A stretch of DNA of 41,651 nt from an uncultured Clostridia bacterium. Lineage in GTDB: Bacteria; Bacillota; Clostridia; Oscillospirales; Oscillospiraceae. The first letter of the stretch is position 1. The number at the start of each line of letters is the position of its first letter. The notes below the pieces were generated by a model. The model did not search any database, was not told the origin of the DNA, and saw only the letters and a list, made by a program, of their open reading frames with translations. This document shows positions 77 to 41,306 of this stretch, piece by piece. The stretch covers positions 1 through 41,651 of the forward strand of contig CAMOXI010000010.1 of NCBI GenBank assembly GCA_946628965.1. Reading direction: 5' to 3'. A program made the position numbers and the translations under genes.

Positions 77-144
77 GTAGGGGCGGCTATCAGCCGCCCG
101 TTAACTTGATACAGAGCTGGCGGGCGGCTGATAGCCGCCCCTAC
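77..144. repeat. REP-like pair (BIME) between uxuA and uxuB
   Basis: Two 24-nt arms (77-100 and 121-144) are perfect reverse complements of each other, separated by a 20-nt spacer. Each arm is also a hairpin by itself (GGGCGGCT/AGCCGCCC). The outer ends read GTAGGGG and CCCCTAC, the head shared with the other REP-like palindromes in this window. On the uxuAB transcript the pair would form either two short hairpins or one long one, and could affect relative stability of the two cistrons. That effect is inference. Confidence 0.85.
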
Positions 145-1508: not shown

Positions 1509-1535
1509 CGGGCCGTCGGGGACGCCGGCCCCTAC
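1509..1535. repeat. REP-like palindrome, CCCCTAC-tailed
   Basis: GGGCCGTCGGGG...CCGGCCCCTAC forms an imperfect hairpin ending in CCCCTAC, the reverse of the GTAGGGG head of this window's REP-like family. The stretch from about 1380 to 1680 between uxuA and the RAYT gene otherwise shows no gene. Confidence 0.7.
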
Positions 1536-1631: not shown

Positions 1632-1658
1632 CGGGCCTTCGGGGGCGTCGGCCCCTAC
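1632..1658. repeat. REP-like palindrome, CCCCTAC-tailed, just upstream of RAYT
   Basis: Closely related to the copy at 1509-1535 (GGGCCTTCGGGGGCGTCGG then CCCCTAC). It ends 22 bp before the RAYT start codon. A related palindrome in the equivalent position lies upstream of the second RAYT gene (41280-41306), so it probably belongs to the transposable unit. Confidence 0.75.
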
Positions 1659-1680: not shown

Positions 1681-2205
1681 GTGGACCTGCCCAAGCGAAA
1701 ACAGATCCGCCTGCCGGAGTATGATTATTCTTCTCCCGGCGCGTATTTTGTCACGATCTGCACCCATAACAGAAGATGTCTCCTCTCGGACATCGCCGTA
1801 GGGGCGCTTCACGAAGCGCCCGCTGTCTCTGTAAAACTCACAGAGATCGGCCAGGTCGTAGATGAGGTCATTCAATCTCTTACGGCGAGGTATCCAAATC
1901 TGACGATTGATCATTACGTGATCATGCCGAACCATGTCCATTTGCTCCTGCGAATCGAGGTGGGCCGGGCGCTTCGTGAAGCGCCCCTACGCGCGGACGG
2001 AACACGGTCGCTTCTGTCTAAAGCGGTTGGTTATCTGAAAATGAACAGCAGCAAGCGGATCCATGAGAATCACCCGGAAATACAAATCTGGCAGCGCGGG
2101 TATTACGAGCACGTGATCCGCGGGGAAAAAGAGTATCTGGAGATCTGGGAATATATCGACGCGAACCCCGCCAGATGGGCGGAGGATCGCTATTATTGTG
2201 AATGA
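1681..2205 (+). CDS. REP-associated tyrosine transposase (RAYT, IS200-like HUH family), copy 1
   Basis: A 174-residue Y1-type transposase. The HUH motif is NHVHLLL (H85, H87) and the probable nucleophile is Y158 in the YIDANP motif near the C-terminus. The GTG start at 1681 is chosen because the protein then begins DLPKRKQIRLPEYDY, as does the second copy (40732-41256), which has the same length. The longer in-frame extension upstream runs through REP-like repeats and is unlikely to be protein. Two REP-like palindromes lie in frame inside the gene and encode VGALHEAP (residues 40-47) and RALREAPLR (96-104). The two copies are very similar. RAYTs in Proteobacteria cut and mobilise REP sequences; the same relation is inferred here. 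Confidence 0.88.
   Translation: MDLPKRKQIRLPEYDYSSPGAYFVTICTHNRRCLLSDIAVGALHEAPAVSVKLTEIGQVVDEVIQSLTARYPNLTIDHYVIMPNHVHLLLRIEVGRALREAPLRADGTRSLLSKAVGYLKMNSSKRIHENHPEIQIWQRGYYEHVIRGEKEYLEIWEYIDANPARWAEDRYYCE
1798..1822. repeat. REP-like palindrome inside RAYT copy 1 (first)
   Basis: GTAGGGGCGCTTC followed by ACGAAGCGCCCG forms a short-loop hairpin with the family GTAGGGG head. It is read in frame as VGALHEAP. The same palindrome is at the same codons in RAYT copy 2 (41115-41139). Confidence 0.9.
1966..1990. repeat. REP-like palindrome inside RAYT copy 1 (second, inverted)
   Basis: CGGGCGCTTCGTG then AAGCGCCCCTAC is nearly the exact reverse complement of the palindrome at 1798-1822. It is read in frame as RALREAPLR. 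The two form a BIME-like inverted pair inside the coding region; RAYT copy 2 has the matching element at 40947-40971. Confidence 0.9.
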
Positions 2206-7496: not shown

Positions 7497-7524
7497 GTAG
7501 GGGCGGTGGCTTGTCCCCGCCCGG
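7497..7524. repeat. REP-like palindrome, GTAGGGG-headed
   Basis: GTAGGGGCGGTGGC followed by TTGTCCCCGCCCGG. It pairs in inverted orientation with the copy at 7618-7641, flanking the terminator hairpin between the convergent esterase and anti-sigma genes. Confidence 0.75.
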
Positions 7525-7548
7525 CAGTGCAGCGCAAAATCGCAGAAG

Positions 7549-7594
7549 AAATGTTCGGCAAATTCGTAAGATCTTGCGAATTCGCCGAACATTT
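7549..7594. terminator. Bidirectional terminator between esterase and anti-sigma genes
   Basis: A stem of about 22 bp with two mismatches: AAATGTTCGGC at the left pairs with GCCGAACATTT at the right, and the stem continues inward to GATC. It is flanked by A- and T-rich ends, so it can serve both convergent transcripts. Confidence 0.7.
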
Positions 7595-7617
7595 TTAGGA
7601 TATTTTGTGGGATGCCG

Positions 7618-7641
7618 CCGGGAGGAGCAAGCCTCCCCTAC
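7618..7641. repeat. REP-like palindrome, CCCCTAC-tailed
   Basis: CCGGGAGGAGCAAG then CCTCCCCTAC, the inverted partner of the copy at 7497-7524. The stem differs in sequence from the partner but keeps the CCCCTAC end. Confidence 0.7.
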
Positions 7642-13057: not shown

Positions 13058-15589
13058 ATGAAGCTCAGCAGATGCAGCAGAGGCCATTTTTATGACGCGG
13101 ATACTTACACAGTCTGTCCGTTTTGCAGCGCGGTCCTGCCTGTCGTTCCGTCTCCCGGCAAGCCGACTCACAGTGCGGATCCCAGGATCGCTCCGTCCTT
13201 CCTCCGTTACGGAACGCCGGAGTTCTGCGGCAGAGGGAGCAGCGGCGTGGTCTATAAGCTGGTGCCGAAGCCGGCGGAATATGTGGTCAAAGTCGTCCGC
13301 TGTGAGACCGCGGCGCAGGAAGAAACCGTCCTGCACGAGCTTTCCATGGGCAGCCGCCTGCACACGCTCAAAGGCCTTGTGCAGATAGAAGGCTACGACA
13401 TGCAGCGCGAGGGCCGCGTGACTTACTGGTCCATTCTGGAGCACGCCTGCTCTCCCCTGCCGGAATGCATGCAGCTGGCGCCTCTCACGGAGGAAGAGGT
13501 ACTTTCCCTGGGGATTCAGCTCTGTGATACGCTGCTTTCCGTGCAGCGCTCCGGCTGCCTGCACATGGATCTGCAGCCGAAAAACGTCTTCCGTGATCAA
13601 AAGGGGAACTGGCTGCTGGGCGATCTCGGCGGAATCTATCCCCTAGAGGAACTGGCGTCCGGGAAGCGGATCGGCACCCCCGCCTTTATGGCGCCGGAGG
13701 TGTATCGGGACGGCGCATGCAGCGAGAAGGCCGTGGTATACTCACTGGGCATGCTGCTCTACGCTGTCCTCCACCAGGGAAAGCTCCCACTGGAGGATCG
13801 CTATCCCGCAGAAACTGCGGTCCGGAAGCGTCTGAGCGGCGAAGCCTTTCTCTTCCCTGCGCAGAAGGAACCCGGTCTGCGGTATCTGACCCCGGCTCTG
13901 CTTTCGGACCCGTCCGCGCGGCCGGGTCTCGCGGAATACCGGGAGCTGCTCACAGACTGTCAAAACCAGAGGAGCGATGCGGCCCCCGTGCCCTTCGACG
14001 CCGCAGTCTCCGTGCCCTCCCCGGCGCCTGTGACGGATACGCTGACCCCCGGCCTTTCCCCCGTTTCCAGCAAAGACACACTGACGCCCGACGATCAGGC
14101 GCCGCACGCCTCTCTGTGGGGGGCTCCCTATGAGAGCGCCGGGTATGCAGCAGCCGACGCCGGATCCGCAGCTGCGTCTGATGCGTTCTGGGATGACGTG
14201 GATCTGGGGATGCCCGCGCAGACCCAGGCCCCGGCCGCGCCCGACCCGTTCTGGGATGACTTTTTCCCGGGTATGTCCACACCTGCTCCGTCCGCCCCGG
14301 TCTCAGATGCGCCCGACCCGTTCTGGGGTGACATGGAACCGGGGATGCCCGCCCAGGCCTCCGGTGCGCCCGATCCGTCCTATACCGACGAGGACATAGC
14401 GATGTTCTCCCCGCCCTCGTTTATTTCCGATATTCACTGGGAAGCGGATCTCAATGACAGCGAGGACTCCATGCCGGAGCCCACAGCCCACGCTCCCGTC
14501 TCCGGAACTGCCGCCGGGATGGCATCCCGCCCGGCGTGGCTTGACCGGGAGGACGCCGCCCCCGCGCCGCCAAGGCCAGCGGCTCCAATGCCTCCCGCAC
14601 CGCCCCGGCCCGCGGCCCCGATGCCTCCCGCACCGCCCCGGCCCGCGGCCCCAATGCCGCCCGCGCCGCCTGCCCCCAGGGCCGAGAAAGCCGGCGGCTT
14701 CTTTGGCCGTCTCTTCGGCGGAAAGAAGGATAAAAAGCCGGAAGCCTCCCCTGTCCAGAGCGCTCCCGCCCCCGCGCCGAAGCCGCTGCCCCGGCTCAGC
14801 GAGGTGCAGTTTTCCGCTGTGTTCCCCAACCGCTTTGTCAAGGGCGAGTATTCCATCCTGGAAATGTTTCTCTACGAGGAAGAGTACCACCGCGTGGTGG
14901 AGCAGGCCATCGCCGCGGCTGAGACCGCGGTGAAGGAATCCCGCAGCGGCATCCTGCAGATCACCGAAAAGGCTGACGTCTGCGTGCTGCTGGAGTGCGC
15001 CGACCAGAGCGTGGAGATCGACGGCAATGGGGAGCATCAGACCTGGTACGGCAAGTATCTGAAGTTCGACTTCTCCGTCTTTCTGCCGGAGGCCTATGCC
15101 CGGCGGCAGGTCATGTTCACCGCCACCGTGTTCTTTAACGGCGTGCCCGCGTCGAAGCTGCGCTTTACCGCTATGTGCAATACCCTGCGCGAGCAGAAAC
15201 TGGAACTGATGCGGGAGGACATCCTCACCGCCTTCGTCTCCTATGCCAGCCAGGACCGCAGCCGTGTCGCCACGATCATCCAGGGTATGAAAAAGGCCCG
15301 CCCGGATATGGACATCTTCTTTGATGTGGAGACGCTGCGCAGCGGCATGGACTGGGAGAGGGCGCTTCGCGCCGAGATCGAGCGGCGCGACGTTCTGTTC
15401 CTCTGCTGGTCCCTGGCTGCGCGGGAATCCAGCTGGGTGGATCGGGAATGGCGCTATGCCATGAGCAACAAGGGCATCGAGTGCATCGAGCCGATCCCCC
15501 TCGACCCGCCGGATCGCTGCCCGCCCCCTGCGGAACTGGCCTCCAAGTGTTTCCAGGATCGGGAGCTTCTGTACATCAAACCCGAATGA
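13058..15589 (+). CDS. Zinc ribbon - Ser/Thr protein kinase - TIR domain fusion protein
   Basis: An 843-residue multidomain protein. A zinc ribbon (C6, H10, C20, C23) is followed by a eukaryotic-type kinase (about 50-300) with G-loop GRGSSG (58-63), ATP lysine K78, catalytic loop HMDLQPKN (H169, D171, N176), DLG at 189-191 and APE at 212-214; all key residues are present. A disordered linker (about 310-575) holds three repeats of a PDPFWDD..PGMPAQ unit and three of PPRPAAPMPPA. A beta-rich domain (about 577-720) then precedes a C-terminal TIR domain (725-840) starting AFVSYASQDRS. The glutamate E797 in SSWVDREW aligns with the catalytic glutamate of NAD-cleaving TIRs. Start: ATG after AAAGGAGGAG. 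Kinase and NADase activities, and any role in signalling or defence, are inferred. Confidence 0.9.
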   Translation: MKLSRCSRGHFYDADTYTVCPFCSAVLPVVPSPGKPTHSADPRIAPSFLRYGTPEFCGRGSSGVVYKLVPKPAEYVVKVVRCETAAQEETVLHELSMGSRLHTLKGLVQIEGYDMQREGRVTYWSILEHACSPLPECMQLAPLTEEEVLSLGIQLCDTLLSVQRSGCLHMDLQPKNVFRDQKGNWLLGDLGGIYPLEELASGKRIGTPAFMAPEVYRDGACSEKAVVYSLGMLLYAVLHQGKLPLEDRYPAETAVRKRLSGEAFLFPAQKEPGLRYLTPALLSDPSARPGLAEYRELLTDCQNQRSDAAPVPFDAAVSVPSPAPVTDTLTPGLSPVSSKDTLTPDDQAPHASLWGAPYESAGYAAADAGSAAASDAFWDDVDLGMPAQTQAPAAPDPFWDDFFPGMSTPAPSAPVSDAPDPFWGDMEPGMPAQASGAPDPSYTDEDIAMFSPPSFISDIHWEADLNDSEDSMPEPTAHAPVSGTAAGMASRPAWLDREDAAPAPPRPAAPMPPAPPRPAAPMPPAPPRPAAPMPPAPPAPRAEKAGGFFGRLFGGKKDKKPEASPVQSAPAPAPKPLPRLSEVQFSAVFPNRFVKGEYSILEMFLYEEEYHRVVEQAIAAAETAVKESRSGILQITEKADVCVLLECADQSVEIDGNGEHQTWYGKYLKFDFSVFLPEAYARRQVMFTATVFFNGVPASKLRFTAMCNTLREQKLELMREDILTAFVSYASQDRSRVATIIQGMKKARPDMDIFFDVETLRSGMDWERALRAEIERRDVLFLCWSLAARESSWVDREWRYAMSNKGIECIEPIPLDPPDRCPPPAELASKCFQDRELLYIKPE

Positions 15590-40190: not shown

Positions 40191-40204
<14 letters not shown>

Positions 40205-40256
40205 AGTAAAAGAGCCAGTCCGAAAGGACTGGCTCTTTTACTTGGAGCTGCTGGGC
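40191..40256 (+). terminator. Perfect 31-bp inverted repeat spanning the tRNA-Thr 3' end
   Basis: The arm 40191-40221 is an exact reverse complement of 40226-40256, with a GAAA loop. The inner part (AAGTAAAAGAGCCAGTCC and complement) acts as a terminator-type stem. The outer 13-14 bp duplicate the tRNA acceptor/T-arm in inverted form at 40243-40256. In the precursor RNA this could compete with the tRNA acceptor stem. Confidence 0.8.
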
Positions 40257-40731: not shown

Positions 40732-41256
40732 TTATTCGCCGTAATAGCGATCCTCTGCCCATCTGGCGGGGTTCGTGTCGATGTAATTCCAGATTTCCAG
40801 ATAGTCCTCTCCCCCGCGGATCACGTGTTCGTAATAACCGCGCTGGAAGACTTGCAATCCCGGCCGATTCCCATGGATTCGCTTGCTGCAGTTCATTTTC
40901 AGATAACCAACCGCTTTAGACAGAAGCGACCGTGTTTCGCCCTCCCGTAGGGGCGCTTCACGAAGCGCCCGTTCCGCCTCAATTCGCAGGAGCAAATGAA
41001 TGTGGTTCGGCATGATCACGTAATGATCAACCGTCATATTTGAATACCGCGCCGGAAGAGATTGAATGACCTGATCAACGACTCGGCCGATCTCTGTGAG
41101 TCTTACTGAGACGACGGGCGCTTCGTGAAGCGCCCCTACAGTGATATCCGAGAGGATGCATCTTCTGTCATGGGTGCAGATCGTGACGAAATAGGCGCCG
41201 GGAGTCGAATAATCATACTCCGGCAGGCGGATCTGTTTTCGCTTGGGCAGGTCCAA
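40732..41256 (-). CDS. REP-associated tyrosine transposase (RAYT), copy 2
   Basis: A 174-residue paralogue of the RAYT at 1681-2205, same length and closely similar throughout. HUH motif NHIHLLL and terminal Tyr in YIDTNP are kept, so it is probably active. The TTG at 41256 is chosen because the protein then begins DLPKRKQIRLPEYDY like copy 1, where the equivalent codon is GTG. Both in-frame REP-like insertions occur at the same codons as in copy 1 (VGALHEAP, RALREAPLR), so they predate the duplication or transposition. Confidence 0.88.
   Translation of the reverse strand: MDLPKRKQIRLPEYDYSTPGAYFVTICTHDRRCILSDITVGALHEAPVVSVRLTEIGRVVDQVIQSLPARYSNMTVDHYVIMPNHIHLLLRIEAERALREAPLREGETRSLLSKAVGYLKMNCSKRIHGNRPGLQVFQRGYYEHVIRGGEDYLEIWNYIDTNPARWAEDRYYGE
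40947..40971. repeat. REP-like palindrome inside RAYT copy 2
   Basis: GTAGGGGCGCTTC followed by ACGAAGCGCCCG, identical in form to 1798-1822; on the coding (minus) strand it encodes RALREAPLR. Confidence 0.9.
41115..41139. repeat. REP-like palindrome inside RAYT copy 2 (inverted)
   Basis: CGGGCGCTTCGTG followed by AAGCGCCCCTAC; on the minus strand it encodes VGALHEAP. It forms an inverted pair with 40947-40971. Confidence 0.9.
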
Positions 41257-41279: not shown

Positions 41280-41306
41280 GTAGGGGCCGGCACCCCCGAC
41301 GGCCCG
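41280..41306. repeat. REP-like palindrome upstream of RAYT copy 2
   Basis: GTAGGGGCCGGCACCC then CCGACGGCCCG. In RAYT orientation this is the equivalent of the palindrome at 1632-1658 (and closest in sequence to 1509-1535). Confidence 0.75.

Follow-up and report, generated by a model that had tools for sequence, protein, structure and literature searches.

In-frame inverted REP palindromes inside two RAYT genes of an uncultured gut Clostridia bacterium

RAYT genes of the window and their palindromes

The window analysed here is a stretch of 41,651 nucleotides (contig CAMOXI010000010.1, assembly GCA_946628965.1) from an uncultured gut bacterium of the class Clostridia, and it contains two genes for a REP-associated tyrosine transposase (RAYT), REP standing for repetitive extragenic palindrome. 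Copy 1 (1681..2205, plus strand) starts with GTG and encodes 174 amino acids, while copy 2 (40732..41256, minus strand), located 395 bp from the contig end, starts with TTG and encodes a protein of the same length that is 82% identical to the first. In an inverted-repeat search of the window the two copies form inverted arms of 522 nt with 89% complementarity. Seven RAYT loci of this kind, whole or broken, are present in the host genome (eight matches). Both window genes carry, within the reading frame, an inverted pair of identical palindromes.

The in-gene element, GTAG-GGGCGCTTC-AC-GAAGCGCCC, is 24 nt long: a GTAG foot precedes a hairpin whose stem has 9 bp and whose loop has 2 nt. In copy 1 it reads GTAGGGGCGCTTCACGAAGCGCCC at site 1 (1798-1821, plus strand), and its exact reverse complement lies at site 2 (1967-1990, minus strand); taken as an inverted repeat, the pair has 26-nt arms (1797-1822 and 1966-1991) that are 100% complementary. 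The same 24-mer occurs at the corresponding sites of copy 2, namely 41116-41139 (site 1, minus strand) and 40947-40970 (site 2, plus strand). The original prediction, made from the sequence alone, had described such in-frame inverted palindromes in copy 1 and in the same order in copy 2, and both statements hold. Site 1 covers codons 40-47, between strand 1 and the first long helix, with GTAG on the coding strand, and is translated as AVGALHEAPAV; site 2 covers codons 96-104, in the loop after the HUH strand, with GTAG on the template strand, and is translated as VGRALREAPLRA. REPs recognised by TnpAREP are built in this way, with GTAG at the hairpin foot, as described in the accessible text of PMC8266576.

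In a structure model (12 rows, mean pLDDT 75.6) both REP-encoded stretches fall in predicted loops. The first loop connects the first long strand (residues 20-28) with the first long helix (residues 55-70), and residues 40-45 in it have a pLDDT below 50; the second, with residues 99-104 below 50, connects the HUH strand (residues 85-92) with helix 111-128. Judging from this model, both sites seem to lie where extra residues are tolerated.

The window protein has the HUH motif (codons 1933-1941 in copy 1) and the single catalytic tyrosine (codon 2152-2154) of the Y1 transposase fold, and the gene apparently encodes an intact-looking Y1/HUH single-strand nuclease of the REP-associated kind. REP_Tyr_transpos is the top-scoring NCBIfam family for both copies, at 74.1 and 63.9 bits, below the cut-off of 80 for this equivalog; by these scores the two proteins are RAYT relatives outside the curated equivalog.

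Distribution and pairing of the in-gene REPs

Of the 102 genomes searched from the genus, 48 contain homologues, as do 69 of 295 from the order; a collection of named genomes has no fewer than 480 confirmed places. The survey consists of the best matches to the window protein and its relatives (the best 80 of the at least 480 collection places, 30 loci of the order and part of the genus matches, the genus group taking in one locus of another family, L029); it favours relatives of the window protein and does not amount to a census. Partial open reading frames (ORFs) were left out (109 reduced to 82, with seven duplicate loci also skipped, and 113 to 110), and removal of duplicates (192 to 181) yielded 181 distinct aligned full-length ORFs, the window's included. 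A REP was scored where GTAGG accompanied a hairpin with 7 or more pairs.

The GTAG-recognition region of the E. coli enzyme includes W94, Q95, E100, H101 and R104 (PMC6006769, section 12), which by alignment correspond to W137, Q138, E143, H144 and R147 of the window protein. Among the 181 ORFs the glutamine is found in 181, the arginine in 180, aspartate or glutamate in 180, the histidine in 167 and the tryptophan in 159, with phenylalanine in its place in 22. The motifs tabulated for TnpAREP subclass 2.4 in the text of PMC6006769, NH[IFV]H, WQ and YIxNNP, occur in 169, 160 and 43 ORFs, respectively (164 for the looser YI..NP), and copy 1 has NHVH, WQ and YIDANP. An insert after the HUH strand is a further trait of this subclass; a REP at site 2 is present in 146 of the 181 ORFs (67/82 and 79/99 in the two sets), in minus orientation in 145. 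The window gene is a RAYT, probably of subclass 2.4 or its sister.

A REP at site 1 was detected in 139 ORFs (70/82 and 69/99), and at any position other than the two sites in a single ORF, where it is weak. The split architecture of the window genes, with a plus REP at site 1 and a minus REP at site 2, is shared by 125 ORFs: the two of the window, 82 from its order (18 genus codes) and 41 named records, 40 of them from Bacillota and one without a phylum. The others have both feet at site 2 (8), both at site 1 (2), a reversed split (1), a REP at site 1 only (11) or at site 2 only (12), or neither (22, by the strict detector). At least two of the last group, L151 and L173, do carry a double-foot REP. 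The original prediction had asked whether homologues without the two inserts exist, and relatives with fewer or no in-gene REPs do.

Chance palindromes or codon bias were rejected as the source of the hairpins, since synonymous recoding of the 125 split genes (20 rounds) gave a mean of 0.95 GTAG hairpins and a maximum of 4, against 254 observed. An artefact of metagenome-assembled genomes (MAGs) was likewise rejected, the split form being found also in a single-contig genome (G343) and in records not titled MAG. The refuting conditions of the prediction were tried in part, also on distant family members. Of the NCBIfam RAYT family in 299 genomes of the phylum, the 30 top-scoring loci, which belong to other RAYT subgroups and of which 28 lie in open frames of at least 210 codons, contain no in-ORF REP; 29 of the 30 loci lack any GTAGG hairpin, so that they give no evidence of RAYTs avoiding available REPs.

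In one group of genes a single REP carries both feet at one site (7 genes identified by script and L167 by reading). They come from several non-Bacillota phyla and form a well-supported FastTree group with members from Chloroflexota, Planctomycetota, Pseudomonadota, Spirochaetota and others; the reading of these genes as having two REPs at site 2 was rejected, as most have one double-foot REP. In L081, L060, L061 and L193, site 2 contains tandem REP readings with short linkers (GPSGTPAPTRETGT repeated in L081, GDGRQVAAI in L193), and therefore the insert can grow in frame. The RAYTs of L104 and L105 have two non-identical REPs in reversed order, with the tags inward, inside one site.

Within the 125 split genes the two REPs match closely. 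Two REPs of one gene are on average 96.1% identical, and REPs taken from different genes 66.6%; no permutation out of 10,000 exceeded 71.4%. The two are identical in 60 genes against 3.3 expected. When types were cut at 90% identity, 113 genes had the same type at both sites and 12 had differing types, so the matching is not absolute. Common descent accounts for the likeness of the two window copies, but not for the matching as a whole, which spans clades with different REP types; at 45-55% protein identity, 8% of gene pairs have the site-1 type in common. On a tree built without the two sites, 30 type changes were required at site 1, 32 at site 2 and 33 for both jointly, and therefore most changes at the two sites coincide. 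Frequent swapping of types between clades was not seen: as 30 types need 30-33 changes, types mostly follow RAYT clades. That the two REPs change jointly across relatives suggests a gene labelled with its own target.

The peptides encoded at the two sites look unrelated (VGALHEAP/RALREAPL, VGADALGG/GPPRASAPT, VGAAISRP/GRLIAAPT and RRGDPCGRP/RATARVAPT), and at the sequence level each pair results from translating a single palindrome in its two orientations. At 70-80% protein identity, codons for the same residue differ in 2.4% of cases in REPs and in 45.3% elsewhere. The corresponding Nei-Gojobori proportions of silent (pS) and replacement (pN) differences are 0.046 and 0.025 in REPs against 0.645 and 0.173 elsewhere; at 80% identity or more they are 0.023 and 0.018 against 0.378 and 0.086. 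At 60-70% identity, where types differ more often, REP pS is 0.279 and pN 0.277, with 0.738 and 0.263 elsewhere. Near relatives therefore keep the REP as DNA, and from clade to clade it is replaced altogether; the remainder of the gene shows ordinary selection on the protein.

It is very unlikely, in view of this pattern, that the encoded peptides themselves form DNA-binding or dimer loops and that the likeness in DNA is a by-product. Site 2 does immediately follow the HUH strand, RAYT clade and REP type co-vary, and the reading phase is mostly constant (115 of the 125 split genes at site 1, the other 10 sharing a second phase; 95 at site 2, with 29 and 1 in the other two). Yet pN/pS in REP codons is 0.80, 0.55 and 0.99 in the three bins from closest to most distant, against 0.23, 0.27 and 0.36 elsewhere, and silent changes in REP codons are rare in the two close bins. 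Moreover, the peptides are as dissimilar as VGALHEAP, VGADALGG and RRGDPCGRP, some arise from other frames, and ORFs without REPs retain H85, H87, Q138 and Y158.

A doubtful but more serious alternative is tolerated insertion without function, in which REPs moved by active RAYTs land in two permissive loops and mutation or conversion, by template switching between inverted repeats or overwriting from dispersed copies, keeps the inserts palindromic and alike. The low model confidence at residues 40-45 and 99-104 is consistent with it, as are the loop-tolerance argument of PMC6006769 (section 13), the existence of genes with one REP, none or extra copies, and the intragenic REPs known in unrelated genes (PMC3733652, section 15). 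Against it stands the recurrence of the same sites and orientation across the 125 ORFs of the 18 genus codes and 41 named records. Overwriting from the local pool also fits poorly with some in-gene copies: in G062, 10 of 13 exact copies have a CCCCC loop while both in-gene copies have CCCTC, and in G061 and G088 the site-2 variant is rare among dispersed copies. In G088 the site-1 REP is nevertheless the dominant dispersed variant, which speaks for this alternative.

Cognate REPs in the genomes and beside the genes

The window has 15 occurrences of the heptamer GTAGGGG where 2.86 would be expected, and none of 100 shuffles reached 15. In the host genome assembly (2.18 Mb, 134 contigs, about 75% complete) the exact palindrome has five copies, four in the window RAYTs and one at C43:16446, the one dispersed copy whose surroundings were read by eye, which lies in a gap that looks intergenic. 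When GCGATTC and one mismatch are allowed, 24 palindromes are found; the family is thus dispersed in the genome, as the original prediction required.

Three REP types, picked by the analyst from about 30, were searched in 102 draft genomes, with RAYT types assigned by hand and two copies subtracted per RAYT. Where a genome had a full-length RAYT with the type in question inside it, dispersed copies outside RAYT genes were present in 13/13, 13/13 and 8/9 cases (median counts 19, 15 and 12), and in the 27 genomes with any RAYT of the three types the median count was 14 for cognate and 0.5 for non-cognate combinations. The elements have the features of the GTAG family of REPs, namely a GTAG foot, a hairpin, dispersed copies and, often, inverted pairs. 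Sequence comparison supports the earlier assignment of the gene to RAYTs, and the window palindromes are, by the same comparison, REPs of the type going with this RAYT clade.

For one REP type in five genomes, 21 of 34 dispersed neighbours within 200 bp are head-out inverted pairs, and all six in-gene pairs of these genomes are head-out as well. This shared topology would fit a mobile REPIN, a unit from REP to REP excised or copied with RAYT coding sequence as spacer, and so would the degenerate locus L247 (G062:C30:4700-6400), where homology to intact RAYTs is limited to the inner segment, from REP to REP, and a portion of the 5' flank. Such a unit is nonetheless most improbable. A profile search of the 102 genomes with the inner segment, whose matches were compared by eye with the places found by the whole-protein search, gave no clear free-standing copy: 94 of 97 matches lie at places also having outer RAYT parts, two are short matches of 16-17 positions to the HUH strand, and the last is L247, where the retained 5'-flank sequence makes it look like decay in place. 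The dispersed head-out pairs within the 200-bp limit are also shorter, with starts 40-129 bp apart, compared with 171 or 186 bp inside genes. The suggestion in the original prediction that the gene is itself a substrate of the kind of bacterial interspersed mosaic elements (BIMEs) accordingly found no clear support. In place of the outer coding parts, L247 has a patchwork of other REPs, which looks as though REPs had acted as breakpoints.

Genes with and without in-gene REPs differ in their flanks. A REP lies within 300 bp of 22 of 119 split genes, against 13 of 21 genes without an in-gene REP (Fisher p 1e-4), nine of the 13 having REPs on both sides; with L151 and L173 removed, 12 of 19 are flanked (p 1.3e-4). 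Control windows at locus ends contained a REP in 4 of 254. Within 500 bp of the 119 split genes, REPs were found upstream in 28 (16 of matching type) and downstream in 11 (7 matching). In-gene REPs combined with fewer flanking ones indicate that the cognate REPs that usually flank a RAYT sit inside the gene. This difference, which tolerated insertion does not predict, suggests that it matters to a RAYT gene to have REPs in cis. One clade without in-gene REPs (L099, L085, L083 and the first RAYT of L077) has on both sides REPs with another foot, GTAGCGCCG....

On balance, it is probable that each window RAYT is a REPtron with its REPs inside the gene, the inverted pair being a cognate REP set borne in cis. 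The TnpAREP enzymes of the groups covered in the accessible text of PMC8266576 bind REP single strands and not the inverse strand, and in one of these groups GTAG takes part in telling the strands apart; because of this strand specificity, an inverted pair would give each strand of the RAYT gene one recognisable GTAG hairpin, as a predicted binding site. The pair may do the job of the flanking REPs of other REPtrons, and enzyme specificity and REP type would be inherited, transferred and changed together.

Several observations weigh against this interpretation. The pair is not essential, as the genes with one REP or none attest. Flanking REPs accompany 3 of 7 genes with both feet at site 2, which departs from a strict trade-off, and also 4 of 11 genes with site 1 only and 6 of 11 with site 2 only; the trade-off counts share ancestry and are uncorrected for it. 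REPs of the three searched types occur in 30 of 89, 27 of 89 and 20 of 93 draft genomes without a full-length RAYT of the type (medians 0), and the window's own type, A, has one exact dispersed copy only in its genome. The REPs of distant genes change freely, their pN at 60-70% identity being no lower than elsewhere, and low silent divergence could result from homogenisation instead of selection. The strand-specificity work concerned RAYT groups 2 and 3, and the role of GTAG in group 2 is more limited, according to the available text of PMC8266576. Because of the site-2 double-foot class and the origin of the strand data in other groups, confidence in the in-gene REPtron, and in the wider proposal given below, was lowered slightly and that in tolerated insertion raised slightly.

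The flanks of the window genes themselves also count on the unfavourable side, since both are flanked upstream only, by REPs of a non-matching type. Upstream of copy 1 are two GTAG palindromes of the same other type (1510..1535 and 1633..1658, both minus strand), and upstream of copy 2 there is one that likewise differs from the in-gene type (41280..41305, plus strand). The window RAYTs hence lack the flanking cognate REPs of a REPtron, yet may work like one with the REPs inside.

The original prediction also proposed autoregulation. In this view the RAYT protein would reduce its own expression by binding the GTAG hairpin either in its transcript or in its gene while that is transiently single-stranded. 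Compared with shuffled sequences, the stretch from REP to REP forms a much stronger fold (z -8.2 as DNA and -10.1 as RNA), with the two REPs pairing mutually, and silent-site constraint is compatible with such a role. However, any exact inverted repeat would yield a strong fold, the flanking REPs of other RAYTs need not be in the mRNA, and TnpAREP is described as acting on single-stranded DNA, with no RNA binding described in the accessible text of PMC8266576. Autoregulation is therefore considered unlikely.

A wider proposal is offered tentatively, as a possibility short of probable: RAYTs may need a cis cognate REP for each strand, whether beside the gene, as an in-gene double-foot element or split over two loops. 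The pair would therefore be a specificity label co-selected with the DNA-binding surface, and a recognition code might be read from more than 100 genes. According to the text of PMC3686654, Nunvar et al. proposed that a RAYT acts preferentially on REPs adjoining its own gene; REPs within the gene would be the extreme case, tying specificity to target in inheritance. What holds RAYTs and REPs together is an open question in the accessible text of Bertels and Rainey (PMC3116915). Genes with their own cognate REP constitute a large set of labelled enzyme-target pairs whose specificity is testable by in vitro swaps, and they include a coding stretch conserved as DNA where protein constraint looks weak.

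Other repeats occur in the window. A dispersed inverted REP pair of type GTAGGGGCGGCTATCAGCCGCCC (77..144, with arms 77-99 and 122-144) is head-out like the in-gene pair. At 7497-7641, apparently between genes, two inverted GTAG-tagged imperfect palindromes surround a near-perfect palindrome of about 46 bp, and a perfect 31-bp inverted repeat with a 4-nt loop lies beside RAYT copy 2 (40191-40256). Around position 13669 a frame reads IGTPAFMAPEV, which we take to resemble a Ser/Thr protein kinase motif.

Comparison with known REP systems

The original prediction regarded REPs within the coding sequence of the transposase as undescribed, which is incorrect: in-frame REPs inside tnpAREP genes have been published for subclass 2.4 (Quentin et al. 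2018, PMC6006769), equated there with RAYT group 4 of Bertels et al. 2017. A literature search, resting partly on incomplete texts, found no other report of REPs inside tnpAREP genes. The basic fact is therefore known, and the window arrangement is a new variant of it. In the accessible text of PMC6006769 and PMC3733652 no site-1 insertion, matched split pair or trade-off was found; Figure S10 of PMC6006769 could show site-1 insertions.

As in subclass 2.4, the window genes have in-gene REPs with GTAG feet, and REPs are dispersed in the genome. The accessible text on that subclass describes in-gene REPs besides flanking ones and mentions double-foot REPs, whereas flanking REPs are mostly absent here, and the genes have a single-foot REP between strand 1 and the first long helix with an inverted partner after the HUH strand. 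Short in-frame palindromes in protein genes are a feature shared with intragenic GTAG REPs and with the Rickettsia palindromic elements (RPE) (PMC3733652, section 15); in its available text, Di Nocera et al. 2013 (PMC3733652) report RAYT genes with REPs on their flanks as well as GTAG REPs located within other genes. Those intragenic insertions affect unrelated genes, mostly at differing sites, while in the present case the REPs sit in the gene of their cognate transposase, as a matched pair that recurs. The REPtrons of E. coli and Pseudomonas, as described in the accessible parts of PMC2817692 and PMC3116915, likewise combine an HUH/Y1 transposase with inverted cognate REPs in cis and dispersed copies; their REPs or BIMEs stand beside the gene, whereas in the window RAYTs the REPs lie within the coding sequence.
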